Part shown: piece by piece, positions 17,712 through 44,700 of the stretch
How the letters are laid out: every line of letters starts with the position of its first letter
Position numbering within the stretch: the first letter of the stretch is position 1
DNA from: Panorpa germanica
Lineage: Eukaryota; Arthropoda; Insecta; Mecoptera; Panorpidae
Assembly (NCBI GenBank): GCA_963678705.1
Contig: OY783209.1
Span: forward strand, 10,478,001 to 10,542,000
Direction of reading: 5' to 3'
DNA: 64,000 nt
The notes under the pieces: generated by a model
Database searches by the model: none
Seen by the model: the letters and a program-made list of their open reading frames with translations, nothing else
Told to the model about the DNA's origin: nothing
Position numbers and translations under genes: made by a program

Positions 17712-20700
17712 TTATTTATTTTCCATTAGAGTTTGAAGTTGCAGAACCAAGTCTCTGGCTAAAGCTAGAACGGATTTTGCGTTATGTCTTTCAGCCATCT
17801 CTGAAAATAGAATTTATTTATACATTTTGCTAGGTAAAATATTAAATATTTAATTAGAGTGCTGCATACCATTAAAGAATTTAATTATATCTGTAAAGTC
17901 CATACTGTTCGATAGAATAATATCTCGATAAGTTTCCAGTAGTGCCAACGCAAGGAAAAGTACTAAATGGGCTGAAGCAACTTGCCTAGAAAAGGGAAGA
18001 ACATTTCACTATAATGGTTAAGTATGGATATTGTTTTAGATTATTTATTTACCTGGCAGCCCAAATAGTTTCCCAGGTGCTAAATACGTCACAATACAAG
18101 AGCTCCCTTTTAAAATCTAAAAGAAACCATCGATAACAAAAGTAGAAATGTGTGTAGTCGCCGTGTGCGTGCATCAATTCAAACATCTCAGAATCAAGGA
18201 TTTGAATAAGCGATCTAGTAATAAAAACGACAATCAATTAGCAGAAAATATAAGTAGCTTTCAAATCAGTTTCTGTCATTTGTATTTACCGCATGTTAGC
18301 AAAGTGGGTGTCCATCGCACCACCATTTGGAAAGTTATCAATCATTCTTTCCATTAGCCGACAAAAGCAGGCGTATGTTTGTGACTCATCATCTAAGATA
18401 ACAAGCAATGGCGCAGCAAGGTCACACATTCCCTGCATATAACCCGTATCTAGATGGCTCCAAACGTAGCTGGAAAGAAACCAAATAAATGTAAGAGAAA
18501 TTCCTGAAGGGGTGATAATTTTTCTATTTAAATATTTGAAACTTACGTGCACATTACATTTCGCAATTTATCCAAATTATCTCCGGTAAAATACCAGTAG
18601 TTCCTATCACATCTTTGCACATCTTTGTCAATGCGGTGAAGATTCAAACCAAAGGTTTCTAAGAGCTCCATCTAGAATTTATTGAATTTTTTGAATATAA
18701 ACTATAAACTGAAAACAAACTAATTATAATAATAACATACGGTGTAGACGCCTCCATTTGAACTTGCTGGAGAAACACAGTTTGACCGAGGTCCTAAATT
18801 ATTAGAAGTTTCTTCGGTTAAAGTATCTAAAAGTTCTCCAGGAGTATTGGAAATAGCAGATACTCCATTTCCAACAATGTCCACAGAGGGATTCGTCACA
18901 ATTACACTAAAAAAACAGCTTTTATAAAATCTCTTGGGCATTTATCAACGAATGAATGTACGTAACAATAAAAACCTTTTGGGTACATCCGGCACGTGGT
19001 TGATTTGGTTGTCTTCTGCATTAGCAAGGTTTCCATTAACTTCAATTCCTTCTGCCACAATATCGTCCGGCTCGTTTTCGTCATCATGCTGAAAGATGTC
19101 AGTATGTGTGTCTTGCGAACTGTGATTAGTGTTACAATGTTTGTCAGGGCTGCTGGGAACGGATATGGTTCCATTAGGAACTGTTACTTGTCCTTCAAAA
19201 TCTAAACAAGTAGCTTCTTCATCGGATAAACTGCAGTCCTCAAATACCTAACAGTATTTTGTTTAAAATTAAGTTTACTAATTAGATTTAGATTTAAGAG
19301 AATAGTCCTATAACTTACATCGTTGCTAACATCTCGAACCATAGCGGGAGCATCGCTAGCACTAGCGCTTTCAGAACTTAGCTTAGCAATTGATGCCGCT
19401 GTTTGCTCCTTATCTCGTTGTCGTACAATTGCTTCAACGGCCAGCCATTCAGACATTGTCGTTTCGTATGTTTGTCGAGTTGTTTCGTCCAACTCCGAGC
19501 GTTCATTAACAGTTGAACCAAAGCTAAAATTAAAACCACAATCATTTTATCAATTTAACATAAAAATCATTCCTAATTTCATATATTTACCAGTAATGCC
19601 CCAATAAATATGGCCACACTTCTTTTCTAATTTCATGCTCAACCCCACCCCAATAAGTTAGTCTGTAAACCTCTTCACAATCTGATACTATTCCACTAGA
19701 ACATAGATCTTTCCATTTTGCAGCTGTTAGACCTTCCTCAGCGCCATCTGTAACCATTATAACGTGTACAATGCGTTAAATTCTGTTAAAGATGGTTAGA
19801 CGCGTAGCTTACCTGATGGTGTTATATTGGCATTAACTAGTCCTGATAAATGAGTCCTCACCGTCGACAGATGTCTGCAGTAAGCCAACCAGCCGTAGAA
19901 AGCTCTCGATATTATTTGCCTTTTCATAGTAGAACATACCAGAGCTATACTTGCTATTTGTGGTATTAACTGAAACAACCAAACTGTGTAATAAAGGCCT
20001 TTAACACTATTTGGTATATTAAACATGTTTGCTAACTTGAGGACTATCTGGAACATTTGTGTCCAGAGATATGCTTTTACTAGAACTTTCACTGGACCCA
20101 GTCGTGGAGCAACTGCTAAGAGGACCACGACTGCATCTGCTTGATGGCCGAATAGCATTACCCCGTTCCAAGAGTCCATGCCGTGTAACTATATCAGAAA
20201 CAACTTTAACAGAAAAACTCTAGTCTAAAAGAGTTAATTTCCCGGTAATACATACATAGAATATTCACAAGCTGTACAAACTCTTGTCTTAAGCAAACAA
20301 TCATTGATAAATCTTACCAAAATCTTCATGATTCGATTTGCTAACAATTCTGAAAACATAGTCGGAAGGTTCTTCTGGAAATTCATTCAAAGAAGGAAGG
20401 GGTCTTCGGCGTGGTCGTGCTGGTCTTGGAAATACTTTTCCAGACCCTCGGGTGCTCCATAATGGTGGATCCAACTGTCCATGTGGAAGCAGTCCTGTTT
20501 CCAAACAACTTAAAAACGCACCCAGATGACCGCCTCCAGGGAATATAATCGGAGGTCTTTGGACACCATCTTGTCCCACGAGGATAAGGCTCCCACCCTC
20601 CTCAATACCTGCCGCCTGGTGGCAATGCACGTAAACTATTTCGTCCACAGAAATGTTGAGTGCATAATTCCAGAACGAACTGAAATCCAACGGTGTAAGA

Positions 20701-23700
20701 ATGATTATCACAGTAGTTAATAGATTGGTTAGCTCTTATACTGGTGAAAAAATAGCAATAGCAATATTAAAAGCATTGGAAATAAATGAAAATATGAACA
20801 ATAATAAAATTATAATAATAACGGATTCTTTAAGTACTTTAAAAAAATTAAATTCTAATGATCACAAATCAAATAATTATTCCAATTTAATAACTAAAAA
20901 TAATACCATAAAATTTATGTGGATACCAGGACATTGTGGAATAAGAGGAAATTAAATTGCGGATAAATTGGCAAAGGAATCAATAAATTTAGAAATTGAG
21001 ATGAAAGTGAAATTACCTTCATATGAAATTTTTAATATAATCAAAAAATTAAACTTCAATTTGAGAAATGAAGATATCATTAACAAAAGTCAATTAAAAG
21101 GAAAAGATTATTATATGTTTCATTCAAATATAAGTAAGAAAAAGATGGTTTAGTAATGAGTCCCGCAAAATTATATCAACTATAATCAGAATCAAAAGTA
21201 ATCATTGTAAAACTCCAGCTCACCTGTACAAAATTAATATTAAATCTGACGATAGATGTCAATGTGATAAAGAAGGAACTTTGGATCATATTATATTTGA
21301 ATGCATAAATTATAGTTTAGAAAGATCAAAATTTAATAGTGAAATATTAGATGTGATTAAAACTTTTCCTGTTAATACTAAACTTTTGTTAAGTGATTCA
21401 AAATGAATTAGTAAGTTATTTAAATATTTAGAAATTTGTAAAATAGAATTATAAAAAGTGGCTATGACGGATAAAAGTCAAGGCAAATAAATAAATCAAA
21501 AAAAAAAAAAAAAATTGGTACCTTTTATCAGTGATTTCACTCTCCGAGTATCCATTCATCAGCTGATTCGGAGTCCACTTTATAGTTAACGATTGCGCCG
21601 TTTGATGAAGACTTAAATATCCCGGCATCGGAGTTTTTACATCTTTCTATAATTAAAGTGAATAAAATTATAGTAAAAAAAGTAAATACATTTCATTTTA
21701 AATCTATAATAGATGTCTTACCGGAAGCACCCGAACATTATTCTTTCCATACAACAACGTAGCTCTAGAATTCTGGTGAAGAGATTCGACGTAATCTTTG
21801 GCACAATACATAGGCGCACTGTTGGATCTGGAAGTGTGACCTTCTTCTGAGCTTGCATTTAAGCTGCGTTTGAAATTTAGCATTGGACGTCGACAAGATG
21901 GCGGTGTAGGATGCCCGGAACTGATGCGATGTCGTTGGACCTTTAACAAAAGAAATACAAGATACTAGTTTCTTTTCTAATACACTACTAGCATTCACAA
22001 ACGTGTCCACCCACAACAGCAACACTACCTGCAGGCGCAATATTTAATGGTTGCAATTAACGAGAGGCCGTTGGAAAAGTCCTCTCGTCCACTGCATGAT
22101 CGTTACCCCTTTCAAATGCACACAACCCTACTCTCTAAAGTATTATTGGCCGCTGTGTGGCGCGCGTTTTAAGAACGCGCCGCACTCTGTGTTTGTAATA
22201 TATATGTTTTATAATACATTAGCACTGGCAATCGAAGTGCAGAGCATATTACCACTGGTGCAGTGATGTAGCCTATATTTGAGGCCACGACACCATAGAG
22301 AACTAACTATGAAAGAGATTACCAGAGATTACATAAAACAAATAGAAAAAAACACAGTGAAAAATTTTCAAAAACCAAAGCACTCTATTTTATGTTTTCT
22401 TTTTTTTTATAAGAAATTATTTTCGAATTTCTTACAAATAAATAAAACAAATTTGAATTTGATAAAATTGTGTCATAAAAAAATATTATCAGAATTATTA
22501 TTTTGAAATTAATATGATTTAATATATATTATAAATTAAAATATTCAATTTTTGAGTGAATTTAAAATTCCAAAATTTTATTATATTATTCAAAAATAGT
22601 AATTTTTATTAAATCATCTCTTTCGAATAAAATATGGCGACTTCGACGTATGACCCAGTTGAAGAACTAAATGAAGCACCAAACACCTTCGAAACTCACC
22701 CAAGTGCGACGGTTCGTATTAGTTTCGTAATGATTTCGCATTATTTCTATTATAGCATTTCGAAACGATTACGATACTGTTAAGAAATCATACATATATA
22801 ACAAGTGAACAAATATTTCAAATTTTCATAACGAACTATAGTCACAATATACTTCCAGATAGAAATTTGTCTTGCAGTGCAAGTTTCACACAACCTAGCT
22901 TACCGCAAACTAATTTCAATGTTCATATTGAAGCTGGTTTGCATACGGAAAATTCTGTTGCAGTGCGTTTTCACTGTCAATATCCAATAAAGTAAAAAGT
23001 AAGTTTACAACGAAATTCAAATCTTTTCAGAATGTAGCTCCGGTAGAGAAACCAATCCAAGAAAAGCCACCGGAAGTGGTAGAGGAAGTGGTAGAAGAAG
23101 CGGTTAAAGATATATACAAATGTATTTGTACAAATATTATTGAGGAAGAATATTTGGAAGAAGAAGGTTTTCTGGAAGAAGAATATGTGCAAGATGAAGA
23201 ATGCATTTGTGAGGAGAGAGAAGAAAAGTTATCTATCAGTAAGTCGATCCCAGAAGTAGTGGCCATACAACATATTATTATAGATGAAGAAGAAGAAGAA
23301 GGTCTTGAAGAGGAAGAGACAAAAGGTATTACGACGGACTTGATTGTTGCCTTCATTAAATATCATTTGTTGTATATAATTATTATTAATTTTATTTTTT
23401 TAGAAAAGAAAAAGAAAGCCCCTACAATTGTTGAAGAAGGTATTTCTATATTAATGCATACGATTTTTTTCCATTTACATTTTCTTCCATTACTATTTAA
23501 TTTCAACATATTTTGATCCTGCTATTTTTCATTGGAGTCAATCTTTGTTTATCTACTTTTCTCATCTTCCCACCAGTTCCTTATTTGCCAATTCTATTTT
23601 TTTGCTTTTTCGGATAGTCTTCTTCTATGCCTATGATGCTTCCTTTTAGCCTGTCCTTCCATTATCCACATGAACCTTTATCTTATTGTTATTCTAAAGT

Positions 23701-26700
23701 GCTGGTTTCGTAGTTCCAGCTTGATTTCTTCATCTGTACTTCATTTTCATTTCTCCTAATCTTTCTTTCACCCCCGCAACACTTATAACAACGTCTGATT
23801 TCTGAGTAATTCAGAACGAAAGAAGTATTAGATTTTCGTTCATCATTCTTAAATATGAATTATTTGTTCCGCAGAAGTGATTGCTGAAGAAGAAGAAGAA
23901 CCAACGGATATAATTGTAAAGATCGATCGAGAAAAATATTTAAAAGAATTATTATATTTAAGAGAAAAAAATGACGAGTTACAGGTTAGAAGTAACATCC
24001 TGAATAATTTATTGGCTTCTTACTTCACGCGGAAAAGGGTAAAAATAAATATATATGAACTGAATGATTCACTTATAGATTAAGTTTTAAAACTTTATGT
24101 ATATTTTCAGATGCAACATGTTCTTCAAAAAGAATATCGACAAACCAGAAGTGATCTTAAAAAGAAATATGTAGAAAAATTAAATGCATATGAAGAAATA
24201 AGAAACAAAGCAAAAGATAAAATATATTTATCGAGAAATGAAATTCTGGACTTTCAAATTGTGCTTGAAGAAAAACGATCTAAATTTGAACAAGAATTTA
24301 AAATATTTCAAAATAGAGAAAAAGAAGTTGCGACCGGATTAAAAAGTTCTAGGACTGGAGTAGAAATTGCTGAAAAGGTAGGAGGAAGTTTTATTTCTTA
24401 AGGATAAAAGATACTTGGGCATTTTTTCTAGCGAAATATAGATGGCGATACTATACAGCAGGTTAAATATTATCAAGAAATCCATGTTTTTTATGTTTAA
24501 ATCGTTTTATGTAAGTAACTATAAGCGCGAATCAAAATCTAAAGCTGCAATTACTTAGATGAATAACGTATCTACATTTTACGTTTTCTTTCACTGACTT
24601 TTAATGAGTTGGAACCGCAAAAATAACTTTTGAAAATTAATTGCTATATTTTCTAGTTAAATTCCAATTCCTGACAGTGGAAGAAAGCTTAAAATGTAGA
24701 TACGTTATTCATCTAACTAATTCAGATCATAGACAAGAGCAAGTTTCAATTATTCATGATTACATTAAATTAACTACATGATGTTAATTAAATGAAATCT
24801 ACTACATATTCTGAAACATAAATGAATTGATTTAAATACAGAGTGATAGTGATTAATTAGAGTGGCAACTTACTGCCGAATTTTGACTGGATTTTTTCTT
24901 TTCCGAATTTAGTCTTGAGAGACTATTCTAGACATATTGTACTATTTAATAAGACAATAAAAGAAATCGTTTTTTGAAATTTTAAATCCATGTAACCCTT
25001 TAAAACGCGTATTACTTGTACAGCACATATGGCAACACTCTTTCATGGAGAATTTAAAACAAAATACAGCACAAGCTTTAACGTGTTAAATTTAAATACT
25101 TTACCTCTGCTTTAACGTATTTAACAGCGGAATGTTCGTTCATGGAATAAAATAATTACATTTACAAGTGTTGCTATACCGTGAAATCCATCACCCCCCC
25201 CCCCCCCCCACTCCCCAAGCCACCACTTCAACAAACTCGTATAAAATTAATCCCACATATCCCATACTGTTATTACTAAAGCCGTATCTCTAGGGAAAAA
25301 ACACATTTAATGCAAATTATTTTTATTTCTAGGCAATAGATCGTTTTCTTACTCGGCAGAATTCGGAATGTAGAAATTTAGCAAAATTTCGATTTTTGTA
25401 TATAAAAGCTAAGAATGAATTAAATGCTAAAATAGAAGCATCAAATAATCTGATGAAGATTGGTCCAGGACTGACGATAGATTATTATGAAACCCTAACG
25501 CTAGTGCACGCAATCGCAACGGATAAAATACAAGGTACTTAATCGATACATATGTAGTTTGTAGGTTAGGAAAAAAGGGTGAGCGTTGGTTGCACGCTTT
25601 GATTAGAGTTCAATCCCGGAGGATTATGTTCCAACTGTCATTACGATTATAATTGGCAGCACTGCAACTAAATGTTGTCCAAAATTTTAATTGTGACTAC
25701 ACATTAATTGCTTGAAAGTGTACTATATATTGATAAAGTGGGTTACTAGAACCTCAAATGTTCAATTATTTTTTAATAACTCCTTATATGTTAAAAATTA
25801 AAAAAGTCATTTTGTCTCTTTAATTATTAAAAGGTTGTATACATTCCAAATGCATGTTACATCACAACCGCTGCCAACCTTACCGCTCATAAATCTCTGC
25901 TATATGTATTTATATATAAAATATTATTTACAGCTATTTCAAGGAACAATAAAATTTCAATATTATGCCGTAACAGGGTTAAATAAAATAAAAACTTATT
26001 ATTCTTTGACTTGACTTGATTGTTTGACTACCAACAGCTACAAAACATTACCACAGCACTGACCTACTCAACAAATAAGTGACGTTAAAATGCATTTCAC
26101 GTCATACAAATATGGCCGACCATTTTTAGCGCTAAAACAACAATTCAAACTTTTAATTGCTATATATCCGCCAAAATTTAGATATTTAATAAAATAGACA
26201 CGCCAATACACATTTATTAACATCCATTTCAATCAATAATTGAAAAATCGACCACTAAAAAATGAGGACTCATGAGGATTAACAATATTACAGAGAAAGA
26301 AGCAGAATTGGAAGTATGCAGAGAAAAATGTGACAAACAAACAGCAGTTCTTTCCCATGCCCGAGAAAAGCTTGACGTGACGATTACCGATATCAAATAT
26401 TACAGCGAACACTTGAAAAAATTCGGACAAAGTATTTTCCATGTGAGATATCTCTTAATTTACAAATCTTTATATTAATTGGAGATAATTAATGTATTGT
26501 TTTATGTTTAGTATCGAGAAAATATAAATGTTCGTAGATGCCATCGGGACCGAATTCGAAAAGCAAGCGAAAAACTGAAATACAAAAACGCCTTAGCTTT
26601 CAATAAGGATCTTCTCTGTGACATGTATGACACATGTCTAAAGGTTTGAAGATTTACTTAAATAATTTTAAAAAGATTTGGGTCTCTACTTAAAAACTTT

Positions 26701-29700
26701 TTCTTGTTTTAGGTAGATAAGTATAAGATAGTAATCGAAGACCTTAAAGCTTCTTATACTGATTGTCGTTCTAAAGTACAAAAAATAAGAGAAGGTGTGC
26801 CAATAGTTGCCCAGCCTCATTCTGACGCATCTCAACCTTCAAAAGCACATCCCCCAAAGTCACTTAATCCAAAGAAATCGTGTTATAAACGAAAAACTTC
26901 TGGAAGCCGCGCTACAAAACCCGTTGAGTGCCACGAACCTGTTCAAAGCTCTTCCTCAGAGAACTCCTACGATTCCTCAATAATTAATTTATATTTTAGA
27001 CCACCAGATAAACAAATTACATAACTTTTAAGCTAGATCCAATATTTATACTAATTATATTTTGATTTTGTATTTTTGATAAATGAACTACAAAATAAAA
27101 TGCATTTTTAGATGCATATTAAATTACATATATAGTATTTATTTCTACATATACGTATTGTGTAAAGGCCGCGTTGACACTTGCGCGTTAAAATATTTTT
27201 GTGTCGTTTGCCGATTATTTGAGGTCAAGTAAGGACGTGCAGGATTATTTGCCGAACTACCTGTCCACACTTGTTTTTAAATTATGGCAAATATTTAATA
27301 CCCGAATGCAATTAATGTTTACATACGTTCACACTGAACATTGTAGGTTATGTTTTAATGTCTTACCTCAAACATGGCCGAAGTAAATACTGGTTTGCTC
27401 TATTCTAATTTTGTTACTACAATTGTGTACGGATTCCAAATGTTAGCCAAATGAGTACGAACTTTGTGTCCACACATGTGTCTTCGCACTAAATGTTTAG
27501 ACCCGAACACACAAGTATGAGCGTGTTCTAACAGAATACCAAGTAAACAAACCTTAATGGTAAAGTAGAGACAAAACTGTCAAAACATATGCGTTGACAT
27601 GACAGCTGTCTTGTTTGCATAGCTACTTATACAAGTGCGTACACTGTTCAGTATCACATGTGTCTAAACCGCGTAATTGCGAACATTATCAACTCCATTG
27701 TTCAATTGCATGTGAAAGTGTCGGTAAATTGAATATAATCAGAAATAATATCAGCATTGGCGTCTACTGCACACGGCGCGGTCCTACAGGTTAGTCCCCA
27801 GTAAACAATTTGGTGAAGATCGAGTCACTCGTACAATTCTATTCTAACGCTTTACAAGTTCTCTACCTGTCACAGATTTTGTATTAGTTGTTAGAGTTTT
27901 TTCATAATAATATTCTTTCTTTTTCCAACATCATTCATTAAGTATTTCTGTTTCTTTCCCACATGGATATATTTTTTTTTAATTCACTTTCATCTCATTT
28001 ATTCCAAAGTGAGAGAGAAACGAGATGCGGTTAGACAAGTAAAATATATTTTTCACCGTTACACTTGTATACTTGTATAGTATTTCATTCAGGACAGTAT
28101 GTTTAAAGTATATGCTATCCTTTTTCAACAAATATTTCTTTAATGGTAATAGACAGACGCTATCTCCCTCAATCCCCGAATATTATGTATATAAACGAAG
28201 ATAGTATCTAGCGATGCTAAGACAGAGGTTTTAAACCTAACGCAGACGTGCCGATCGTGGATTTTTGAATCACCAAAACAATGTAAAAAACTAATATAAC
28301 GAGTATTGTTCAAGATGAATAATATTCATTAAAAAAATCACGATCCGTACTAAAGATTACATCTATTTATTTCTCCATTTAAATATTTATATTTTGCAGA
28401 CTCTAAAAAGTAGAATTCCATTAAGTTTTATACCCCTGCCATCCCTGCTAGTGTCAAGTTTATAACTCCGGTCATACATCATAAACCGACTCCGCTTTTA
28501 ATTCAGCAGTGAACCGTCGTTGCGATCTCTGTAGGTCATAAAAAGGGCCTTTCCTATGAACGACTGAATAGAAAACGAACAAAAAATTCATGATATGTAA
28601 TAGAAATTAAGTAGAATTTACTCCAAAATGTTTACTGGGAAAACATACAAAAATGCAGTAGTTTTTTTTACAAAGTGAAAAACAAAAGGTATAGCTGAAA
28701 TAAATAATTACCAATCTTTGGCTCGTATACATAAAGGAAAAGGTTTGCTATCACTGCTGTAATCAGTAGGAAATGTAAAATAAAAAATATCGCGTTTTTC
28801 AGAAACTAGTTAACATGACACAGAAACAAATGAAATGGCATTCATATTATATTAAGTTACTGATAAAATAGTTTATTTTATTATTATGTGTAGCTTAATA
28901 ATTAATTTATTAATTATAGCTTATTTATATTAATTATTTATGCCTTTAGGCTAATAATTATAAATTCTAAAATTAATTTTATTATTAAATTATCAAAATT
29001 CAAATTTTAGAAATATTTCTATATTTCTGTATATTGAGAATTTAAATGCAGCTATTCTGGAATATATCCTATAGGTTTCAAAGAAAATTTTAAGTGAAAA
29101 TTTATGTATACATCGATTAACGTTAGAGGAAATTAAAATCAGTAAGAAAAGTAGTAGACGTCCTTGTAATACAGTCTTAAAGTTCAAATTACTTGAATCT
29201 GTTGAAACTGACTTTCAATTGCTTTCAAGTTTAAACAAGTCAGTTGCTTTCTAATTTACAGGTTATCTTTATTCTCATCTCTACCAAAAGAACAACCAGT
29301 AAGAAATAGAGGAATCACATAAAAAAAATGTCACCTCAGTTATCAAAAGAAAATCCTCACTTAAGTCCTTCAAAAGAAAGGACAGGCAGAAAGGAAGATT
29401 CCAAGACGGGCATTCCAAAAACAAATTCTAGAGTAAGTGAGAACGATGACTCTACAGATGGATACACGAGTGACACTAATGAAGAAGGAGGAAGTGACAA
29501 CAAAGCTACGAAGGAAGTCCATTTTAATATGATAGATACCAACGCTTTTTTAGGTTACAACACATATGGGGATATCCACTACAAATATAGTATAGATGAT
29601 GATATTATATTCGGACAATTAATCTTAATTGAAGGTATCAATGTTTAAGATTATTCTAATGATGTTGCATACTTTGCTTATCCTAACTCGAATTCACTTC

Positions 29701-32700
29701 CGCTAAACACAAAATTTAAACTCATGCACTGGCGTAGCTAGGTATGGGCGAGTCGGTGCAGTGCACCGGGGCCCTCGGACTTTTATAACTTATACTTATA
29801 TTTTAACGGTTTCACATTGAAGTAATACTCTCAGTAAATAGTTTTTTTTTTAATATTTATTTATTTATAGTGCATCAACTATTGAGTTATTAGCACTAAA
29901 TAGTTATTCCCGACCATACATACAAAACTTTTATAACAAAAACATAAACAATAACAAAAATTCTAAATAGGAATGAATTTTTTTTATTGAGAGTGTATTT
30001 GATACTCACTTGTGTACAAATTTATCGCTGAACATGAGGGAGGGGGGAAGCATGGACCAGGCAAGGGTCTATGTCTATTATGTAATTTTCTCAGGCAGCG
30101 GTACGCATTCTAGAATTGTTTATGTTGAGATTAAGCTAAAACAAAAGTAGCTGCAGGATTGTACTTAGAGTCTTAGAGCGTAATATGGCTAACAATATAG
30201 AGAAAAGGCAGATGTTTATTTCCTTTGGTCTACAATTAAAACATCATAATAATTGATCTGGATAAGATAGAAGGAGTGACATAAGTGCACATAATTTGTT
30301 GCAAAATAGTATACCCGCTAGTGAAGAAAGTAGGATATTCCAGTCCGCGTGTTTGCCACCCTTGCCTTCGGATAGGGGTCAGTTTTACACGCGGGTTGAA
30401 ATGTCTTACTTTCTTCCCTCGGTGTGTAATATACTATTAATGTTCTATCTACAATAAAGTGTTTTACATACATACATGCATAAATCTTTTGATTTACTTC
30501 GTTTTATTGATTAATACCAATATTATAAATCCAAGTATACGTTCCTAAACTCTTCACCTAGGCGATCACTAAAGCTCACACAAGACACACATACACATAC
30601 ATATAGTAAGTAGTTTTGCTACACGTGCACGATAAAGAGCTGATGATAAACTAATAGCTTTGTACCTTTAAAGTATTTATATATATATATATATATATAT
30701 CTAATTTGAAAAACCTAAACAGTTTAGTTAGGGGCCCAGATTTTTTTTTGCACCGGGGCCCTTAGTTACCTAGCTACGCCACTGAACTCATGCAGTATTT
30801 AACGTACTACTTTGTATATAACGTTACGTTTTATATTTAAAGAAGTTTAACATAATTTTGTTTTATTAAGGAGATCCTAGTACCACTGTAGTGTAAATAT
30901 TACTTATTACTTTTTTCATGCAGATAATATTACACTATAAATTTAATTAATACAAATTTATAAGCATTCAATTGACTAAAATACTCTAAATCGCTTAAGC
31001 ACATTTAAAAACACCGCTAGAGTACATAACCTGAAAACTTACTTCAAATATTCGCGGTTACTCATGCGGCAATTAACTCCGAAAACGACGTTGCCAAGTC
31101 TTACATCGTGTTTTGAACAGCGGAAGATTGTGATATTATTTTTTATAAAAAATGTCAATTATTTTCCTTAACATACTATTTTAATCAAAAGCTTAAGGTG
31201 AAACGATATTTTTTTTTTTTTACTTGTTTGCCTTGACTTTCTTTCGTCATAGCCACCATCAAACATTTTTTATACATCTTTTATAATTTATAATTCAATT
31301 TTACAAATTTCTAAATATTTCAATAATTCACTAATTAATTTTGAATCACTTAACAAAAATTTAGTATTAACAGTTTTATTAATACCGTATCTACATTTTA
31401 AGCTTTCTTCCACTGACTTTTAATGAGTTGGAACCGCAAAAATAACTTTTGACAATGAATATTGTTATATTTTCTAGTTAATTTCCAATTTTTATATGAC
31501 TGGTAACATTTCTAAGGGTTTGTCATAAATTTTATAACCTTTATATAACTTAAAAAATGTAACAAGGAAACATTTCTATGTTAAATAAATTTTAAATCTA
31601 TGTAACTGTGTTTAGCGGAATATTGCTTCACATACTAATATGAAATTTGTAACACTTTTCTATGTGGGAACTTGCTTCAATTCAAGATGACATCGAAATG
31701 ATGCATGAAGAGGGTAGGTTGTACAATTATTTACTCGTGTTCATAATTATGATGAGAATATAAATCATTGCGTTCTTGTAGATCAATCAGTTGGTGGAGT
31801 AATGAGCCTGGTAGATGTCTTCGACAGAGACAACTATATTCAGGACTATTTTGTACAATTGCGACGAAACTTTTATTTGAAGAGAGAAACAGAACGTTGG
31901 CACAAATTAATGGCTATCCACTTCAAGAAAAAAAAGGTTTCATTTGAAAATACTTTTACTAATTTAAGTCATTCGCAATATGGTCGGGTTCCAGACACTC
32001 GCTTTCCTTAATTCCCAGTAAACATTTTGGAGTAAGTTCTACTTAATTTCTATTACATATCATGAGTTTTTTGTCTGGAATGTGTTCGTTTTCTATTCAG
32101 TCGTTCATAGGAAAGGCCCCTTTTATGACCTACAGACATCGCAACGACGGTTCACTGCTGAATTAAAAGCGACTCCGGTTTATGATTTATGACCGGAGTT
32201 ATAAACTTGACACTAGAAGGGATGGCAGGGGTATAAAACTTAATGGAATTCTACTTTTTAGAGTCTGCAAAATATAAATATTTAAATGAAGAAATAAATA
32301 GATGTAATCTTTAGTACGGATCGTGATTTTTTGAATGAATATTATTCATCTTCAACAATGTTCGTTATATTAGTTTCTTACATTGTTTTGGTGATTCAAA
32401 AATCCACGATCGGCAGGTCTGCGTTAGGTTTTAAACCTCTGTCTTAACATCGCTGCTTAGAGTATTCGTTTAAACACATTATATTCGGGGGTTGAGGGAG
32501 ACAGCGTGTGTCTATTACCATTAAAGAAATATTTGTTGAAAAAGGATAGCATATACTCTAAACATACTGTACTGAACGAAATACTATACAAGTATACAAG
32601 TGTAACGGTGAAAAATATATTTTACTTGTCTAGACCGCATCTCGTTTCTCTCTCACTTTGGAATGAAAATGAACTAAAAAAAAATATATCCTAGTGTGAA

Positions 32701-35700
32701 AGAAACAACTGCTACTTAATGAATGATGTTGGAAAAAGAAAGAATATTATTATGAAAAAATTCTAACAACTAACACAAAATCTTGACAGGTAGGGAACTT
32801 GTAAAGCGTTAGAATTGAATTGTACGAGTGACTCGAACGTCACTAAATAGGGCACTTCACCAAATTGTTTACTGGGTTGTGTATTTTAAATAAGTAATTT
32901 TTGTTAATAAATTAAAGTTAGACCACGTGCTACAAGAAGTGAATCCATTCCATAAACCAGAGCTGTTAAAAAAGTACGAAGCGGTTCTAATCAGGTACGA
33001 TGAACTAAAGTATGCCGAAGAAACGACAAGATTAAGAGAGCAGAAGGAAATAGATACGATGATAGAAGTGAGGCGTCAAAAGTTAGACCAATTTAAAAAA
33101 GATTTTGGGCACCTTCTACATCGAGCAAAAGAAATTGGCTTAGGACTAAAATCATATCGAACTGGACAAATAATATCGAATGAGGTACGTGAAATAAACC
33201 TATCAATACACTTAAGAAGGGCTGGAAAACTCTTCTTCTTTTTTCAAAAATCAAATGGAATTTGGAGAAAAGAAGATGAGGTTTCCGCCATAGAGATTAA
33301 ACCACTTAAATTAGCTTCTGGTAAACTAGCAAGTGTTAATCTTAAAATGCAGGGAAATTTTCTATTTAAGTACACATTTAATGGCACATTTTTTTAACCA
33401 CGTTTTTGACTGTAACTGGACAAAGAAATAACTTTTGGCAATGACAAAAATCATCAGAAAGCAATAGCGTGTAATAAATAATTAGTGCCAGTTTAAAATA
33501 AATGAGATATTATTAGAAGTTAATTGATAATAATAAAAATATGAACATTTCAGATAGTAAAAAGACGTATAAATCTACAATTCGATGCCTTAAAGAAATT
33601 ATCAAGAGCAAGAGTTGCTTATATCAAAGAAAAGAATGCTCTCGCAGCCCAAAACGAAAAGATGCGCAATTTGGAGAACATTGGTCCTGGGTTAACAATA
33701 GATGATTACCAGCAGTTGCTATTGGCAAAAAAAATCATAACCGATAAAATCCAAGGTAAATACCCAGTAAACATTTTGGAGTAAATTCTACTTAATTTCT
33801 ATTACATATCATGAATTTTTTGTCTGGAACATGTTCGTTTTCTATTCAGTCGTTCATAGGAAAGGCCCTTTCTATGAGCTACAGACATTGCAACGACGGT
33901 TCACTGCTGAATTAAAAGCGGAGTCGGTTTATGATTTATGACCGGAGTTATAAACTTGACACTAGCAGGGATGGCAGGGGTATAAAACTTAATGGAATTC
34001 TACATTTTAGAGTCTGCAAAATATAAAAATTTAAATGAAGAAATAAAAAGATGTTATCTTTAGTATGGATCGTGATTTTTTTAATGAATATTATTCATCT
34101 TCAACAATACTCGTTATATTAGTTTTTTACATTGTTTTGGTGATTCAAAAATCCACGATCGGCAGGTCTGCGTTAGGTTTAAAACCTCTGTCTTACCATC
34201 GCTAGATACTATCTTCGTTTATATACATTATATTCAGGGATTGAGGGAGATAGCGTCTGTCTGTTACCATTAAAGAAATATTTGTTGAAAAAGGATAGCA
34301 TATACTTTAAGCATACTGTACTGAACATAATACTATACAAGTATACAAGTGTAACGGTGAAAAATATATTTTACTTGTCTAACCGCATCTCGTTTCTCTC
34401 TCACTTTGGAATAAATGAGATGAAAGTGAACTTAAAAAAAATATATCCATGTGGGAAAGAAACAGAAATACTTAATGAATGATGTTGGAAAAAGAAAGAA
34501 TATTATTATGAAAAACTAACACAAAATCTGTGACAGGTAGAGAACTTGTAAAGCGTTAGAATAGAATTGTTTACTGGGTCGATACGTTTTTGTTATAATT
34601 CGTTTTCTGAAAATGAAGCATAATAATTTGCAGAAAGAAACAGTGAATTAGATAATTGCCGCCAAAAATTAGTTGAAAAATATCAAATTCTTCGTCATGT
34701 GCAAGAGAAACTTGTAATCGCCTACGAAGATGTCAAATACCACAACAGTCACGTTGAGAACCTGGCAGAAAATGTTGCGTATGTAAGTAAGAAATGTAAC
34801 AGAAGAAAAAAGACTGTTTACCTTAGACTGGTTTTAAAAGATAATTTTTTATAAAATGTATCCAACCTAAAGGTATCGCTCAGATATTGCAACTTATTTA
34901 ACGTTCACGAATATATTTAGGTAACCAAGAATAAAGCAAATTTCGTATTTCAGCTCAGAGAAAGAATCAGCGAACTTTGCCAAGAGCGGGATCAGATTCG
35001 CAGGAAGATTGCAGCAACAAAGAAGAAACATTACTTAATGTTTCACAAAAATCTGTCATCTGATATGTACAAGACTGGCAAACAAGTTTGTGTTCCAACT
35101 TTATTTATATTATTACTATAAGTATATATATAGAAAAGCAATTGGGCCAATTAAAAACTTTCATGTACTTGACATTACATACATTAGGGTGAAACAATAC
35201 TTGGCCACTTTTACTAGCGAAATATAGATGGCGATACTATACAGCAGATTAAATATTATCAAAAAAAACAAGTTTTTTTTTGTTTAAATCGTTTTATGTA
35301 AGTAACTATAAACGCAAATCAAAATCTAAAACTGCAATTAGTTAGATGAATAACGTATCTACATTTTAAGCTTTCTTCCACTGACTTCTAATGAGTTGGA
35401 ACTGCAAAAATAAGTTTTGAAAATAAATATTGCTATATTTTCTAGTTAAACTCCAATTTTTATATGACTGGTAACATTTCTAAGGGTTTGTCATAAATTT
35501 TATAACGTTTATTTATGATGATGATGATGTGAAAAGTATTTGCATATTCCAGATCATCAAGTTACAAGCTGAACTGGATAGTATCAAGGAAACCTACAAC
35601 ATTAACGCAGAAAAATTGAAAGCATGGAATACCAAAAGAAAAGTAAACAAGGCACTTGAAATGTCTCTTTCCGAGAGTCAAATACCAACCATTCTCCCAA

Positions 35701-38700
35701 AAATTCTCAACAAACATGAAAAAGAAAAATATAAGAAGAGGAATATGTTGCTTGAGAAAGAATGTCAAGTAACATTGAAAGAAGAAGTCGAGAAGATTCC
35801 GACAGACAGTGAAATGTTCTTTGATATTTCTGTCACAAGCTTATCAAATATCAACCTTATTATCAACTCATCTCAGGCAGGTTGATGCCCTTCCAGATTT
35901 TGACAAAATGGTTTAAAGTCAAAAATAATATATTTATTTATTTTTTTACTTTTTTAATTTATACAATAAATATTATTTATAAAAACGAGTTGCTTACTTT
36001 CTAGACTTGTCAACTATGACTTCATTTATATAAAACTGAATCAAATGTCCAATTATTTTTTAATAACTCTTTATATTAATTATTAAAGAGATACATCTCT
36101 TTTATACAGTCCAAAGTGCTCTTATCTAATTCTAGCTCTTATCACTGCATCTTAGACGGCTATGTAGGAAACAAATGAACTATTTCATTCTTATAAATAT
36201 TATTAATCGATAATATAGCATGTGATTTAATTAACCTTAGCATTTTTATTAATATTATTTATAAGCCTAAGGGCAAAATTTTCAAAATTCAAAAATTAAT
36301 TTTATGAATTATTTACAAAATTCAAAAATTAATTCTATTGAGTTATTGAATTAATTTAATTAAAAAATATTGTTGATTTGACTTTTTTTTGAACAATGGA
36401 TGAAGAAGAGCCTATCAAATTCGATATTAACGTAAGTATTAATGGAGTCGAGTGTTTTCATTTCTGGCATTTAGTGAAAATGTATATCATGTCCAAATTT
36501 TCAGACTAAACTACCAACTGCGGATGAGGACGACCTCATTCAGCACGAAGTGTTAGATTATGAAGAAGAAGAACATGAAGAATTAGAAGAATATTTCAAA
36601 CAATATAAAAAATGTTTGTGTAAAGATATTGGTTATGAAGAAGAATATATTTGCGAGTGTTTTGAAGAAGAAGAAGAATGCATTTGTGAAGAAGGTGAAG
36701 AAGATGAGGAAGAAAAAATAATTGTAAAACCAAAAAAGGGAAAATTTGTGCCAATTACATTAGCAGTAGATGAAGAAGAAGAAAAAGTAGAGGAAGAGGA
36801 GAAGAAAGTAGACGAAGATGCAAAATCCGAAGTGGGGGAAGGTATGATTTTAGAATGAATACACTATGGTATATGAAATGTATATCAAGTCTTTAACTTA
36901 AAACTTTTCTTATTTTCGGTTTCAATTGCAGCAGAAGAAGTTGAAGAAGAAGGTAAAACTTTGATACTTTTTGCACTTAAAAACTCACAAATGTATTTGG
37001 TAAAATTTGGGAAACAATTAGCAGTTGTGGCTTTACTAATTATAAACGCAAATATGAATAATGATTATCGTTTTGCAGAGTTCTTGCATGTGGAAGAAGA
37101 AGTAGTAGAAAAAGTATTGATTGACAGGGAAGCATTGAAAGCAGAACACAACGTGCTAATGGTCAGCGGTGCTATACTGAAAAAAGACAACGACTCGTAC
37201 CATAAGAAATTGGCCAATTACTTTAAACGGAAAAGGGTAAATTAATGTCCCAAATTAAATTCTACGAGTTACAGAAATTCCAATTTATCCAAAGGCCTGG
37301 ATCATACTTTAAATACATTTCTGTTGACAGATGGAGCATGTACTGCACGACGTGAATCCTAAATTCAAAGATGAACTTTGTAAAAAAATGGAAGATAAAC
37401 TAAAAACGTATGAAACGTTGAGAGCATTGGAATACGAACACAGAACCAGAGAATGTAAAGAGCTGGATGAAATGATCATAGCAAAAAGTAATAAAATTAA
37501 AACATTTAATGAAGAATTTTCTAATTTTCTACACCGTGAGAAAGAGGTTGCAACAGGACTGAAAAGTCTGCGAAATGGTCAAGAACTTCCTGAAAAGGTT
37601 GTTATTGTTTTCAAAATAAATATAGTTATCTGGAAAATTGTTACAAAATTGTAAAAATTATTGTTTGTTTCACAGATTATAGACCGATTCATCAGCCGTC
37701 AATCGGCGGCTTTAGAATCCCTGTCCAAAAACAGGGTTTTGTACCTAAAGGCTAAAAACGCGTTATTAGCAAAAATAGAAGCCACCAAGAAGTTGGAAGT
37801 CATTGGCCCGGGACTGACGTTGGCCATGTATGACCAACTATTGCTTTATCACGCAACCAGCACGGATAAAATTCAAGGTAACTTTACCAGTTGCCAAAAA
37901 TTATCTAAAACATGTGGTGAACAATTTATTCTATTTGCTAATTGTACGTTACAGAAAAAACTGCAGAACTAGAAGTCATACGTATGAAATGTGATCAGGA
38001 AACAGGAATCCTGGGGCATATACGTGAGAAGCTGGATGTCACCCACACCGACATCAAGTATAATGAAGAAATGCTGGATGATCTGGCTAATACAGTCGTC
38101 AGTGTAAGTCAATGACATCTCTGTAGTCGACTAGAAGACTAAAGTTAGAATCTTTGCTAAAACTTGATTATTTTCTTTTTAGCTGCGCCAATACATAGCT
38201 AATCATTGTATAAACAAAGACGAAACTCGCAAAGAAATCAGCAAACTGAAAATGAAGCACGCTCTCCTATTCAACAAAGAATTATTATGTGATATGTATG
38301 CCTGCACCAAGAGCGTGAGGGTTTCTAATTACGATTGTTCATAATAAATGTAATCCAATGTTTAATTAAAACATACTTTTAGATCGAGAAGATGAAGGTG
38401 GAAATTAGTCAACTGAAAGTTGAGCATTTTGATCTCGCAGGCCAAGTTTCTAATTTAAGACTAAAACAAAATCAACATTATGCTAGAGCATCTAACAAAT
38501 CTGAAGCGCCTTACATGAATAATTCTAAACAAAGACGAAGACCATGTAAGAGAAAACCTCCTACTATAGTTCCAACTTCTTCCGATTGTCGAGTGACCAG
38601 CCAATTATCCACCTCAACTACAGGTACCGATGCGTACGATATATATGCATCCCCATCGACACGCTTTATTCCAAATTTAGTGGATATTGTTTAGATTACA

Positions 38701-41700
38701 ATCTTAAAGATATAAGGAAAATTGAATGATAAATTATTAATTTTGAAATTATTTGTATATACATTTGACACAGATGATTTGAATTTATTTTCCTTTAATT
38801 AATAATAAATTATTTAAATATACTCGTATTTTTTATATATATTTTTAATGGCTTTTAAGTCTAGTCTTTTTTTCGCCATAGAGTCTGCACTGCCACTTAA
38901 TCTTCCATACAACTTCGACCAAACCTCACCAGACTTTGTAGCCTGCGACGTACCAGATCGTATTGATGGCAAAACATACAAACCGACGTTTTTATTCTTA
39001 AATGCATTTTGCATTATTTAATATTCAATTGAAATTGTCCAGAAATAGAAAAACAAAGGCTTACCAATTCGTCTGCCGGAGGATCTGTCCAGAAATGATC
39101 CGGTGTCTTCGTTTTGGAATATTCCAGCGCACATGGACCGACCAGAAGTGAACTAAGTATAGATCCATAATCTGGATCAGCAACCAATGCATCTCGTTCA
39201 TAATACCTTGATGAATTACTTGCTAAGTGATCAATAATGCGAGCCAATTGTTTATCGAACAGGGCTAGACGAATCCAAAGATATCTGCAATGAAATACCA
39301 TAGATAAATTACATATTGTAATGATGTTTTACCTGTGACTTAAGTTTACAAAACCTAGATTATTTGCCGTTTGGCAACTACGTAAGGTGGGGGTAAAGTT
39401 TCTACTTTTATTCATTTTTTATTTATTTATATTATTGTACAACATATTAAGTTTATTGTGTAAAAATTTGTAGTCGATTGGAGTAAAACTGTCAGAGATA
39501 TAGAGTTTTAAGTCTTCACCTCTCTGGTCTGCTTTCGTGTTACTTTAAAACTTTTAAATGCGGTTTCTCACACATAGCTTTTTCAGAGTCGGTGCCCTCT
39601 CTAGCTCAAAATCTACTGGACCGATTCTTTTGAAATTTTGCACACTTTTTCTTTACATAAATGCCGAGGTAACATTGTCGAGTTTTTTTTTATTTTTTTA
39701 TTTTAACGTATTTTAAAATAACAAAGTTTCTGATTTTTTTTATGAAAAATCGGTATTTTGACTTTTAAGTGTTGTAAAAAATTGAAAAATCAATAAAAAA
39801 AAAACTCGACAGCGTTACCTGCAGAAACTTATCAACTAATGAAATCATTTTGGTTTTTCGATTTCAGAAAATCCAGTGATGAGTTATGAGTGGCACCGCA
39901 ATGTTACTTTTTTTGTGACGTCTGCGGAGATTCGCTGTCAATGCCTTGATATTTACTTATGAGAATTTCACAAAGTATTCTTCAAATGTCATTTTATCAT
40001 GTAGTAATTATAGGAATAATTATATATTAACTGTGTCGTCAAAAAACATTATCGAAAATATGCTTTTTTATCGTTTTGACCTTACCCCCTTCTTAAGTAA
40101 CGATTATTTTGGCTCGAAGTGTGTTAAAGGATTGCGGATTGCTTCATTTTGTAGCTTGTACTTCTAAAAAATAATATTGTAAACTAAGATTGATATGCTA
40201 ATCCAATCTCTGAAATATATTTGAACTATTTTACATAAATAACAGAATTAGTAAGTGACTGACGGTAAAGAAATGCGATAAAAACATTTTTTCATAAGAA
40301 AATAACAAGATATATTTACTTGACAGTTGGAGTTCCATTAGACGAGGATCCAGTGACACTTGTAGAAGAGTTCTTTTTACTTAAAGGGGGTTTGCTTGTG
40401 CTATCTCCACTAGAAGATGACCTCTTATTCGGGTCGCTATTTTCAATTTCCTGAACTTTCTTACTGATGACAGCTGCTTCTTCACAGTGCTGCTAACAAA
40501 ATAGAGGGAACGATATCAATTCATGTACCAGATAAAATATTTATACAAGAGTTCTTTTTATATTTAGAGCAGTGCTATCCAACTAGTGACAACAGAAAGT
40601 AAATAATATTTCTAAGGCTAAGACAGTTCAAACAGCATCTTAATATATTTGCCGTTGGCTTGATTGCTCTGGTTTTTTTTATGGAGACGTAAGGTATGCA
40701 TTATTTTATGTGCATGTGACGTCAATCTGCACTTTGAATTTAATAAAGCAAGTATACAAGTGGACGTACTAAACGTTGGAAATCTCTGATAAAAAAAACG
40801 CTATGGATATATACCAAAAAACACTTTTTCTCTATTTTCTATTTGGTTTTCATCGAATTTCCTTTTAAGGAAAGGTCAATATACAGAAACCATTAGCTTT
40901 CATGGAATCGTAAATACATTTTGTATAGAATCCATATATCAGATTTCAAAAGCTTTTTATATGTGAATACAACACGGATTGCCACGTGCCATGTGAATAA
41001 AAGCACGTGCGCTATATCATAGTCTTGATTATATAAAGCAATTTTGCTTCAAGGTATATTAATAAACAGTATTAAATAAAAATCAAATTAATCAAACCAT
41101 TTTGTTCACATATCGAAGAGTTTTTGCAGACTTACAGCAGCTCAGCTGATATTTAAGTAGGCGTGGGGTAATGCATTTTGCTTCTGAAACTTTTGTCTCA
41201 GATTCCGATTAGAAACGCTCACGCTTTTCTTTGCTATATCGCCTAAATATCGATTCAGATAATAGTTCGTGTCTAAGAGTATCGTATTCGAATTTTAAAC
41301 GCTTGTGATCCATATTGTGTGCATGGGCTTGTATCCTATGTCTTAATTTCTATAAAAGTGTACTATACATTGATAAAGTGGGTTACTAGAACCTCAAATG
41401 TTCAATTATTTTTTAATAACTCCTTATATGTTAGGAGATATTAACAACTAAAAAAAGTCATGTTGTCTCTTTAATTATTAAAGGGATTCAACGTTATACA
41501 CATTCCAAGTGCATGTGACATCATAATCCTTGTGTAAGGTTACAAACCTTACAGCTCATAAATCTCTGCTATATGTATTTATATATCAAAATATCAAATA
41601 TTATTTAGAGCTATTTCAAGGAACAATCAAATTTCAATATTATGTCTGCCTTAGCAAGGTTAAATAAAATAAAAACTTATTATTCTTTAATTTGACTTGA

Positions 41701-44700
41701 TTATTGGACTACCAACAGCTACAGAACATTACCACAGCACTGACCTAATCAACAAATAACTGACGTCAAAATGCATTTCACGTCATACAAATATGGCCGA
41801 CCATTTCTAGCGCTAAAACTACAATTCAAATTTTTAATTGCTATATCTCCGTCAATATTTAGATATTTAATAAAATAAACACGCCAATACACATTTATTA
41901 ACATCAATTTCAATCAACAATTGAAAAATCGACCACTAAAAAATGAGGACACAAGCCCATTGCTTACAGCTGGATAAACTTGAAGTGGCCCATCTGTTAT
42001 CAAAACATTGGGTATCCCTGGGTTAAATAACAACCACCCCTACGCCCTACGTTGTACAAGTCCTCCTACATAGTCATATGTATACTCGCACGAATCTGTT
42101 TATCCATCCCTTACATTCCAAACATTGACGTTAGTAATTGCATAAGTAATTCACTGTAATTATAACAACAAAGCTGAAGTGGAACGCAGTGAGGCAGTGA
42201 GGCAGTTCCATCGTCAAACAATTTAATTATTCAGGGAATTGTTATCATCCCCTGTACTGCCTGTACCAGTCGGCGTTTGACGGTCGGTAATTTGTGCTTT
42301 GTTTTTTTTATACGCCCACGCCTGCCGCTTACTGCCTGCTACCAGCGATACAGATTGAACTTGGTTCAGTTATTGACAGTTCAAACTGAGTTCGATATTG
42401 TTTTAGACAGGTACAGGGCGCACTCACGTATTTCTGATAATTTCACATTACGTTGTTGATATAGGGTGTTCATGAGATAAATATTATCAGCTTAAGGTGA
42501 AACGATACTTGGTCATTTTTGATTCGCGAAATATAGATGGCGATACTATACAGCAGGTTAAATATTATCAAAAAAACCATGTTTTTTATGTTTAAATCGT
42601 TTTATGTAAGTTATTTTTATACTCTATATACTCTCTAAGTCTTAAGCGTTAGTTTGAGAACCATACTAAAGGTTATAAAATTTATGACAAACCCTTAGAA
42701 ATGTTACCAGTCATAAAAAAATTGGAGTGTAACTAGAAAATATAGTAATATTCATTTTCAAAACTTATTTTTGCGGTTTCAACTCATTAAAAGTCAGTGG
42801 AAGAAAGCTTAAAATGTAGATACGTTATTCATCTAACTAATTGCAGCTTTAGATTTTGATTCGCGTTTATAGTTAATTACATAAAACGATTTTTTTTATA
42901 ATATTTAACCTGCTGTATAGTATCTCCATCTATATTTCGCTAGTAGCCAAGTATCGTTTCACGTTAATTGAGTTGTAAACTGATTTTATTTTATTAAATA
43001 TCTAAAAATTGACGATAAATGTATTTAAAGTTTGAATTTAGTTTACATACGGGTCGACGCTACAGCTGCTATAGCTCTGACGTTTAATTCTGCATCTCTT
43101 TTGCACTTCTCTTTTTAACAGTGATGGTAAAGGTTGGCAATTGATAGTAAGGAAGAAGATGAGGAAGGAGTGACATCGACTTGTCAAACATTTTTATAAA
43201 TTTATACCCCATTAATTATTAGAATGGAAAAAATGACTATTTCAATCGCTGATAATGGGCTTGTGGTCGATTTTTCAATTGTTGATTGAAATTGATGTTA
43301 ATAAATGTGTATTGGGGTGTTTATTTTATTAAATATCTAAATATTGACGGAGATATAGCAATTAAAAGTTTGAATTGTAGTTTTAGCGCTAGAAATGGTC
43401 GGCCATATTTGTATTACGTGAAATGCATTTTAACGTCAGTTATGTGTTGAGTGGGTCAGTGCTGTGGTAATGTTTTGTTGCTGTTGGTAGTCAAATAATC
43501 AAATCAAGTCAAAGAATAATAAGTCTTTATTTTATTTAACCCTGCTAAGGCAGGCATAATATTGAAATTTGATTGTTCCTTGAAATAGCTGTAAATAATA
43601 TTTGATACTTTGATATATAAATACATATAGCAGGCATTTATGAGCTGTAAGGTTGGTAACCTTACACAAGGATTGTGATGTCACATGCACTTGGAATGTG
43701 TAAAACGTTGAATCCCTTTAATAATTAAAGAGACAAAACGACTTTTTTAATTGTTAATATCTCCTGAAATATAAGGAGTTCTTAAAAAATAATTGAACAT
43801 TTGAGGTTCTAGTAACCCACTTTATCAATATATAGTACACTTTTATAGAAATTAAGACATAGGACACAAGCCCATTTCTATAATATTGGGAATTGAATAT
43901 TTGAGGTTATAATAGCCAACTTTATCCATATACAATGCAGTTTAATAAATAATAAATAAATTTATTAATTTTATTATTGAGGTATTACTCTTTCTTTGAT
44001 AGAACTTAAGTATTCTTCGTTATTCAACATTTCTACAACCGGAGATGAAAAATCTTTTCACTTGTTCATGTTTTATGCAGATGTCTTGATAAGAAAATGA
44101 AATATTTCAAAACCAATTTATAAATCAAAGTAATAGAGAATTTATAAAACTTATTTCTTCCGAAATATAGCATCTCCCACATACAAGGGATTACCAAGGA
44201 TATCCCTCGGCTTATATAATATCCCTCATGTCCTATTATCTTGATATCTGTCATGTCCTGAACTCTAAAGGAAGCGATTAGGCTGACATCTACCATACGT
44301 CTAAAGCCCGCATGAACGAAGATTGAAAATACTAAAATGTTTCTCATAAAATGAAGAAAATAATAAATGGGTACTAAGGAAACATAAAAATATTTTTACG
44401 TTGAAAAAGAAATAACAAATTTATTATCAACACGTGTCTAAAGGAAACAGTGGTCTGTTTCCGGTTCATTCCGGAAACTGTTCGTTTTGTTGAAATAATG
44501 AAAGAAGCAGTCGAGAAGATGAATACAGACTTTGTTGCACAATCTTAAGATGGTTATGGCGTGAACAGATTTTTTTTAAACTTTGTTTATAGGTTATAAA
44601 TAACGTTTACTATTAAATCCCGAGGTTTCACAATTTTGTACCGCTTAGAATCCGAAATAATTAATAATACAGTTACCAATTTTTAGGTTAACCTTTCATC

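Follow-up and report, generated by a model that had tools for sequence, protein, structure and literature searches.

How do three related genes come to lie one behind the other within one intron of a gene to which they are unrelated, and what has kept them there? This question is raised by a stretch of 64,000 nucleotides (nt) from the genome of the insect Panorpa germanica (Mecoptera, Panorpidae; assembly GCA_963678705.1, contig OY783209.1, positions 10,478,001 to 10,542,000 of the forward strand), here called the window. On its minus strand the window carries a gene of the SGSM1/2 type, and the fourth intron of this gene holds on the plus strand three stop-free genes, A, B and C, in head-to-tail order, which resemble the coiled-coil protein CCDC96/CFAP184. 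An earlier note on the same DNA had described them as three complete axonemal genes lying antisense in one SGSM intron, had explained them by local duplication of a gene already present there, had named testis-specific roles as a possible reason for their retention, and had called the arrangement unusual. We consider it probable that the array is an intron-nested tandem gene cluster that was duplicated in place, in which each copy has its own promoter and a CCDC96-type role in an axonemal bridge, and in which the work is divided between cell types or stages. All positions refer to the window and are collected in Table 1; SGSM exons are numbered as in the earlier note.

Three antisense genes within one SGSM intron

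Seventeen exons of the host gene, from 45702-45479 down to 17800-17712, join at GT-AG splice sites into a single frame of 1037 amino acids (aa) with a terminal stop codon. Without exon 45702-45479, the 16 exons that remain begin at 40489, reach the stop at 17712 and encode 963 aa in a frame that is open throughout. This 963-aa product was compared with Pfam, and a second query for the RUN domain included the preceding exon. RUN (57.4 bits; 94.2 bits with the preceding exon), PH_RBD (151.5 bits) and RabGAP-TBC (102.1 bits) are all found in the single predicted protein, and this is the domain layout of SGSM1/2. The RUN match lies upstream and ends in exon 4, while PH_RBD begins in exon 5 and is followed downstream by RabGAP-TBC, so that it is the join of exons 4 and 5 that makes the protein an SGSM. 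These exons (39284-39065 and 21940-21722) meet in phase 0, with the donor GAATTG/GTAAGC and the acceptor TTAAAG/GTCCAA. That they are in phase across 17.1 kilobases (kb), as had been claimed, is borne out by the GT-AG join, the open frame and the order of the domains.

The array runs on the plus strand, opposite to SGSM, and the antisense, head-to-tail order described earlier holds. Counted from the ATG of A to the stop of C, it occupies 16,061 of the 17,124 nt of the intron and leaves 693 nt between SGSM exon 5 and the start of A and 370 nt between the stop of C and SGSM exon 4. A nested paralogue cluster, taken as at least two paralogues wholly within one intron of an unrelated host, is what is found here. 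The models comprise nine coding exons in A, nine in C and seven in B, all introns being GT-AG, and each copy has its own ATG and its own AATAAA 70-110 nt past the stop. Introns are short throughout C (68-126 nt), while four of the eight in A measure 319-955 nt and five of the six in B 369-2147 nt. None of the three frames contains an internal stop across 514-544 codons; base-shuffled coding sequences contain 38-43 on average and never fewer than 18 (1000 shuffles each). In each copy, the first codon position is the richest of the three in guanine plus cytosine (GC), as is expected of coding DNA.

The description as three complete genes holds in so far as all three models are stop-free with GT-AG introns; it goes too far for the first coding exon of B (29328-29634), which is predicted from its ATG, its phase-1 donor and its continuity with the next exon, and to which no exon of A or C clearly corresponds. 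The next exon of B (31782-31936) rests on a low-scoring tblastn match (E value 0.08) together with matching phase, acceptor and donor. The surrounding region, 31718-32008, was at first read as piggyBac-like sequence, a reading rejected because tblastn, phase and splice sites identify 31782-31936 as the B counterpart of exon 4. A tblastn search of the window (E up to 10) gave no convincing sign of a fourth copy or of a relic: 17 of its 73 matches fall outside the array, the best of them at E 0.24, and one match inside the array misses every exon (E 3.5).

Family placement and divergence of the copies

All three proteins pass the cut-off (31.6 bits) of PF13870, the coiled-coil family of CCDC113 and CCDC96. 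A profile built from A, B and C retrieved six PDB sequences with E values between 4.3e-20 and 7.1e-10, followed by seven unrelated ones at E 0.06-0.9 and by 8glv_F4 at E 2.6. Two of the six are named CCDC96, and the names of the others do not separate CCDC96 from CCDC113; because of this, one of the two CCDC96-named sequences was itself used as a query. Its best matches are the same six sequences (E 2e-23 or better), below which 8glv_F4 and four chains named CCDC113/CFAP263 follow at E 1e-12 to 2e-4. These four chains are absent from the profile matches at E up to 10, and 8glv_F4, which is named DUF4201, reaches E 3.3 with copy B alone. Since the best six matches are common to the profile and the CCDC96 chain and the CCDC113/CFAP263-named chains do not appear among the profile matches, A, B and C are placed on the basis of sequence with CCDC96 and not with its partner CCDC113. 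The Pfam scores and both PDB searches uphold the identity proposed in the earlier note.

The alignment to solved CCDC96 chains spans 227-252 residues with few gaps. Where four distant relatives carry G[LM]-LIDFEQLKIEN, the three copies have in common the motif IGPGLT. In a tree with four of the six matched PDB sequences as outgroups (8j07_i1 and 9y6s_9t were left out), A, B and C form one clade with support 100/100, at the end of a branch of 2.48 changes per column. They are very divergent CCDC96 proteins, with 15-18 kept of 39 columns that do not vary in the four relatives. The N-termini of A and C are acidic and contain cysteine motifs (isoelectric points 5.6 and 5.1), while B is without such an N-terminus (9.1). 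In A (23031-23325) and C (36505-36841), the very acidic N-terminal stretch repeatedly carries the motifs KCIC, CLC and ECICEE, which B does not. The third exon is small in both A and C, but a sister relationship of the two is not claimed on this or on their acidic N-termini, because the tree does not settle the branching order. The CCDC96 tree in PMC7987202 covers ten species, with no insect among them, and its list of CCDC113 sequences includes two wasps or sawflies. The missing insects may reflect a difficulty in recognizing insect CCDC96, an explanation that is ours and is not given in the relevant passages of that paper.

The copies have also diverged strongly from one another. Four consecutive exons of 267, 202, 149 and 132 nt have equal lengths and phases in A, B and C and align over 250 codons without a gap. 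Over these codons, 91 amino acids are identical between A and B, 121 between A and C and 110 between B and C, whereas 2000 shuffles per pair gave about 18 identities on average and at most 35. The proportion of synonymous differences (pS) is 0.74-0.89 and thereby saturated, that of nonsynonymous differences (pN) 0.37-0.42; the Jukes-Cantor estimate of synonymous divergence (dS) is infinite in two pairs and 3.05 in the third. Because the synonymous sites are saturated and yet the frames are intact and the lengths of the core exons identical, A, B and C are best described as old duplicates that selection has retained. The divergence reported for them before is thereby confirmed.

Origin of the array and proposed role

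Seven to nine coding exons per copy, with core introns at the same positions, are not the structure of intronless retrocopies. Duplication at the DNA level of a local, intron-bearing ancestor is well supported, and it is preferred over three separate insertions or a nested retrocopy because the three copies have clade, exon structure, orientation and place in common. The local duplication proposed earlier accordingly stands, on the common exon structure and on the fully supported clade. The simplest reading is that nesting preceded duplication. A single intron-bearing CCDC96-like gene would have entered SGSM intron 4 through a DNA-level event, and unequal crossing-over would then have multiplied it in place. 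Transcription of every copy would start at a predicted promoter of its own and end at the poly(A) signal of that copy. As the array is antisense to its host, its splice and poly(A) signals would go unread in the host transcript, and SGSM could splice across it. Host and nested genes are probably active in different tissues.

As to function, CCDC96 and CCDC113 form a bridge that runs parallel to the nexin-dynein regulatory complex (N-DRC) and joins it to radial spoke 3 and dynein g; stable docking requires both proteins (PMC7987202). In Tetrahymena, the CCDC96/113 complex touches DRC9/10 (PMC10504270). Each product of the array may be the CCDC96 half of such a coiled-coil bridge, which would connect radial spoke 3 with both the N-DRC and dynein g. 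By analogy, the copies are probably divided between sperm and chordotonal neurons, the two cell types with motile cilia in insects, or between stages of sperm. In Drosophila, certain N-DRC subunits are restricted to the testis or to chordotonal neurons; the passages of PMC6367277 on these subunits do not mention CCDC96.

Several points weigh against the proposal. Of the 39 columns that are invariant in four distant CCDC96 relatives, A keeps 15, B 18 and C 16, and because so few are retained, the ancestral docking role may be incompletely kept. The order of branching within the array is an open fork in one tree run and groups A with C against B at 55% in another. The acceptor of exon 5 in copy B, GTTAATAAATTAAAG, is poor in pyrimidines. 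Within 1 kb upstream of its start, copy A has no RFX X-box site, copy B one (palindromic) and copy C two; the window as a whole has 1.4 per kb, so that these counts are not above chance. No relatives were confirmed among pattern matches on IMG/VR viral (0/600) and GTDB prokaryote (0/124) contigs, as is expected for an insect gene. The palindromic X-box-like site, GTTTTTCAGAAAC, lies at 28794, 534 nt upstream of the inferred start of copy B.

Alternative explanations

The nested genes may be a side family, that is, fast-evolving extras with a new role, perhaps sperm-specific, axonemal or non-axonemal, while a canonical, slowly evolving CCDC96 is located elsewhere in the genome. This would be compatible with the anatomy of the cluster, and we regard it as possible, if on the unlikely side. 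The long branch to the clade, the loss of more than half of the 39 otherwise invariant columns, the IGPGLT motif in place of that of the four relatives, and the N-terminus found in A and C and not in B all speak for it, but a fast-evolving sole CCDC96 would give the same picture. That the array is indeed the whole CCDC96 complement of the lineage, the gene having moved into the SGSM intron, lost constraint and given rise to three cell-type or stage variants of the bridge, is a suggestion that we make tentatively and think rather doubtful. If it is true, the bridge between radial spoke 3 and the N-DRC comes in three versions in the axonemes of this insect.

Another reading is that A, B and C are duplicates in decay or silent, with frames that survive because the decay is recent, and that transposons are breaking up B in particular. 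In B, introns one, two and four contain transposon copies whose ends are paired, and intron six contains a further repeat. Those in introns two and four belong to a family with CCCAGTAAACA terminal inverted repeats, which has a third copy between A and B; these three array copies are about 0.8 kb long, and the stretches over which any two of them match are 92-100% identical. Elsewhere in the window, the same family is represented at 7277-7530 and 54747-55000 and by single ends at 48204 and 56217. The element in intron one is hAT-like. At least three transposon copies in the introns of B, one of them ending 8 nt past an exon, the weak exon-5 acceptor and the inferred first exon could all be taken as signs of decay. 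On the other hand, 32 repeat stretches were checked and all lie clear of the exons of the three copies, and B has the highest Pfam score. All pairs are saturated at synonymous sites, and yet 514-544 codons are without a stop or frameshift and four exon lengths are exactly kept. We consider decay improbable.

SGSM might instead be split into a RUN gene (exons 2-4) and an RBD-TBC gene (exon 5 onward) with the array between them, or the array might be misassembled. Sixteen SGSM introns were measured, and intron 4 is an outlier, since 12 of the 15 others measure 65-114 nt and the remaining three 842, 1,035 and 4,989 nt; it is about 150-260 times longer than these 12. The first coding exon and the coding start of SGSM, which would be upstream of 45702, were not located. 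Against both possibilities stand the phase-0 GT-AG join within a 1037-aa open frame and the order of RUN upstream and PH_RBD and TBC downstream, which is that of SGSM1/2; the window also contains no N bases. A split or misassembled host is very improbable. An RNase H-like frame on the plus strand (about 20690-21510; PF00075, 22.9 bits, just under the cut-off of 25.8), probably from a retrotransposon without long terminal repeats, takes up most of the SGSM intron of 842 nt that lies between 21522 and 20679. Finally, that A, B and C are paralogues of CCDC113/CFAP263 is barely credible: PF13870 cannot separate the two families, but the six best PDB sequences of the profile are those of the named CCDC96 chain, and the lower-ranking CCDC113/CFAP263 chains and 8glv_F4 are missed by the profile or reached at insignificant E values.

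Other features of the window

Downstream of SGSM, the minus strand carries pieces of a gene of the fatty acyl-CoA reductase type (8461-8670 and 11743-12217), in which three of the four frames scanned score above the cut-off for the 'male sterility protein' family PF07993, and an exon of the odorant-binding-protein type (5305-5520; PF01395 PBP_GOBP, 30.6 bits against a cut-off of 22). A transposase of the Mos1 type at 57795-58501, also on the minus strand (PF17906, 39.6 bits; a weak DDE_3 match below the cut-off), consists of two overlapping frames and is probably dead. The reductase-type gene, the odorant-binding-type exon and this transposase are all in keeping with an insect genome. Another repeat occurs in two copies, 13051-13486 and 45913-46213, with similar reading frames on opposite strands. 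ARAGORN, in its bacterial-code setting, reported no tRNA in the window, and no Rfam family reached the threshold within 17000-46000.

Table 1. Coordinates of the SGSM host gene, the nested copies and the transposons in the array. Slashes mark splice boundaries.
Feature	Position	Strand	Details
SGSM1/2-type gene, exons 2 to last	17712..45702	-	Open frame over 17 joined exons; Pfam RUN, PH_RBD, RabGAP-TBC
SGSM exon 5, start of PH_RBD match	21722..21940	-	TTAAAG/GTCCAACG ... CTTCCG/GTAAGA, 219 nt, phase 0
SGSM intron 4, host of array	21941..39064	-	17,124 nt
SGSM exon 4, end of RUN domain	39065..39284	-	AG/ATATCT ... GAATTG/GTAAGC, 220 nt, in phase 2, out phase 0
Copy A, CCDC96/CFAP184-like, 544 aa	22634..27024	+	PF13870 56.7 bits; AATAAA +70 after stop
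Copy A exons	22634-22711, 23031-23325, 23404-23439, 23875-24038, 24111-24377, 25333-25534, 26294-26442, 26512-26643, 26713-27024	+	
Copy A core exons	24111..26643	+	267/202/149/132 nt, shared coiled-coil region
Copy B, CCDC96/CFAP184-like, 514 aa	29328..35885	+	PF13870 81.1 bits; AATAAA +80 after stop
Copy B exons	29328-29634 (inferred), 31782-31936, 32918-33184, 33554-33755, 34634-34782, 34954-35085, 35553-35885	+	
Copy B core exons	32918..35085	+	267/202/149/132 nt, shared coiled-coil region
Copy C, CCDC96/CFAP184-like, 537 aa	36396..38694	+	PF13870 58.2 bits (536-aa draft); AATAAA +110 after stop
Copy C exons	36396-36431, 36505-36841, 36932-36952, 37079-37236, 37331-37597, 37676-37877, 37955-38103, 38183-38314, 38383-38694	+	
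Copy C core exons	37331..38314	+	267/202/149/132 nt, shared coiled-coil region
Transposon, CCCAGTAAACA terminal inverted repeats, between copies A and B	27797..28639	-	
hAT-like element, copy B first intron	29727..30784		Inverted ends CACTGGCGTAGCTAGG/CCTAGCTACGCCACTG, 8-nt flanking duplication AACTCATG
Transposon of CCCAGTAAACA family, copy B second intron	32014..32876	+	
Transposon of CCCAGTAAACA family, copy B fourth intron	33763..34578	+	End 8 nt past exon 33554-33755

Comparison with known systems

In the open-licence literature, we found no report of insect CCDC96 (no insect title is among the CCDC96/CFAP184 matches listed), of genes nested in SGSM or SGSM1, or of nested tandem duplicates of axonemal genes. 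Nested loci usually hold one internal gene, and to our knowledge, CCDC96 is a single gene in the species known. The array copies resemble CCDC96/CFAP184 (FAP184), the partner of CCDC113/CFAP263, in their PF13870 coiled-coil; they differ from it in being three, each without more than half of the residues that are invariant in four distant relatives. Nested genes are mostly on the opposite strand, and internal genes are reported to be often testis-biased in Drosophila and mouse, though not significantly in human (PMC8467205). Both observations fit an antisense cluster that does not disturb the splicing of its host. The array is like an ordinary opposite-strand nested gene in being antisense within a host intron (PMC8467205), and unlike it in consisting of three paralogues across 16.1 of 17.1 kb.

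Clusters of paralogues within one intron are known from insects as well. TipE, Teh2, Teh3 and others lie in the last intron of CG18675, a cluster that has been compared across 11 insects, and most GMC oxidoreductase genes of insects lie in an intron of flotillin-2 (PMC3240667). With these two clusters on record, and with opposite-strand nesting being the rule (PMC8467205), the word unusual in the earlier note was too strong; the array is a further case of the insect intron-nested paralogue clusters, a kind already known. Like the TipE cluster, which is a conserved block, it places several paralogues in a single intron of an unrelated host in an insect; it differs in family and host, and in that the TipE cluster was examined in 11 insects, while the array comes from one genome. 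With the GMC oxidoreductases it has in common that paralogues of one family lie within one large host intron, but those are metabolic enzymes and comprise most of a family, against three copies here. Since A, B and C have all diverged strongly from a protein whose conservation otherwise reaches from protists to mammals, this insect lineage may have a different CCDC96 bridge. The array makes a case for the joint study of antisense transcription and axoneme specialization, and it adds, after TipE and the GMC oxidoreductases, another example of a paralogue cluster in one insect intron.

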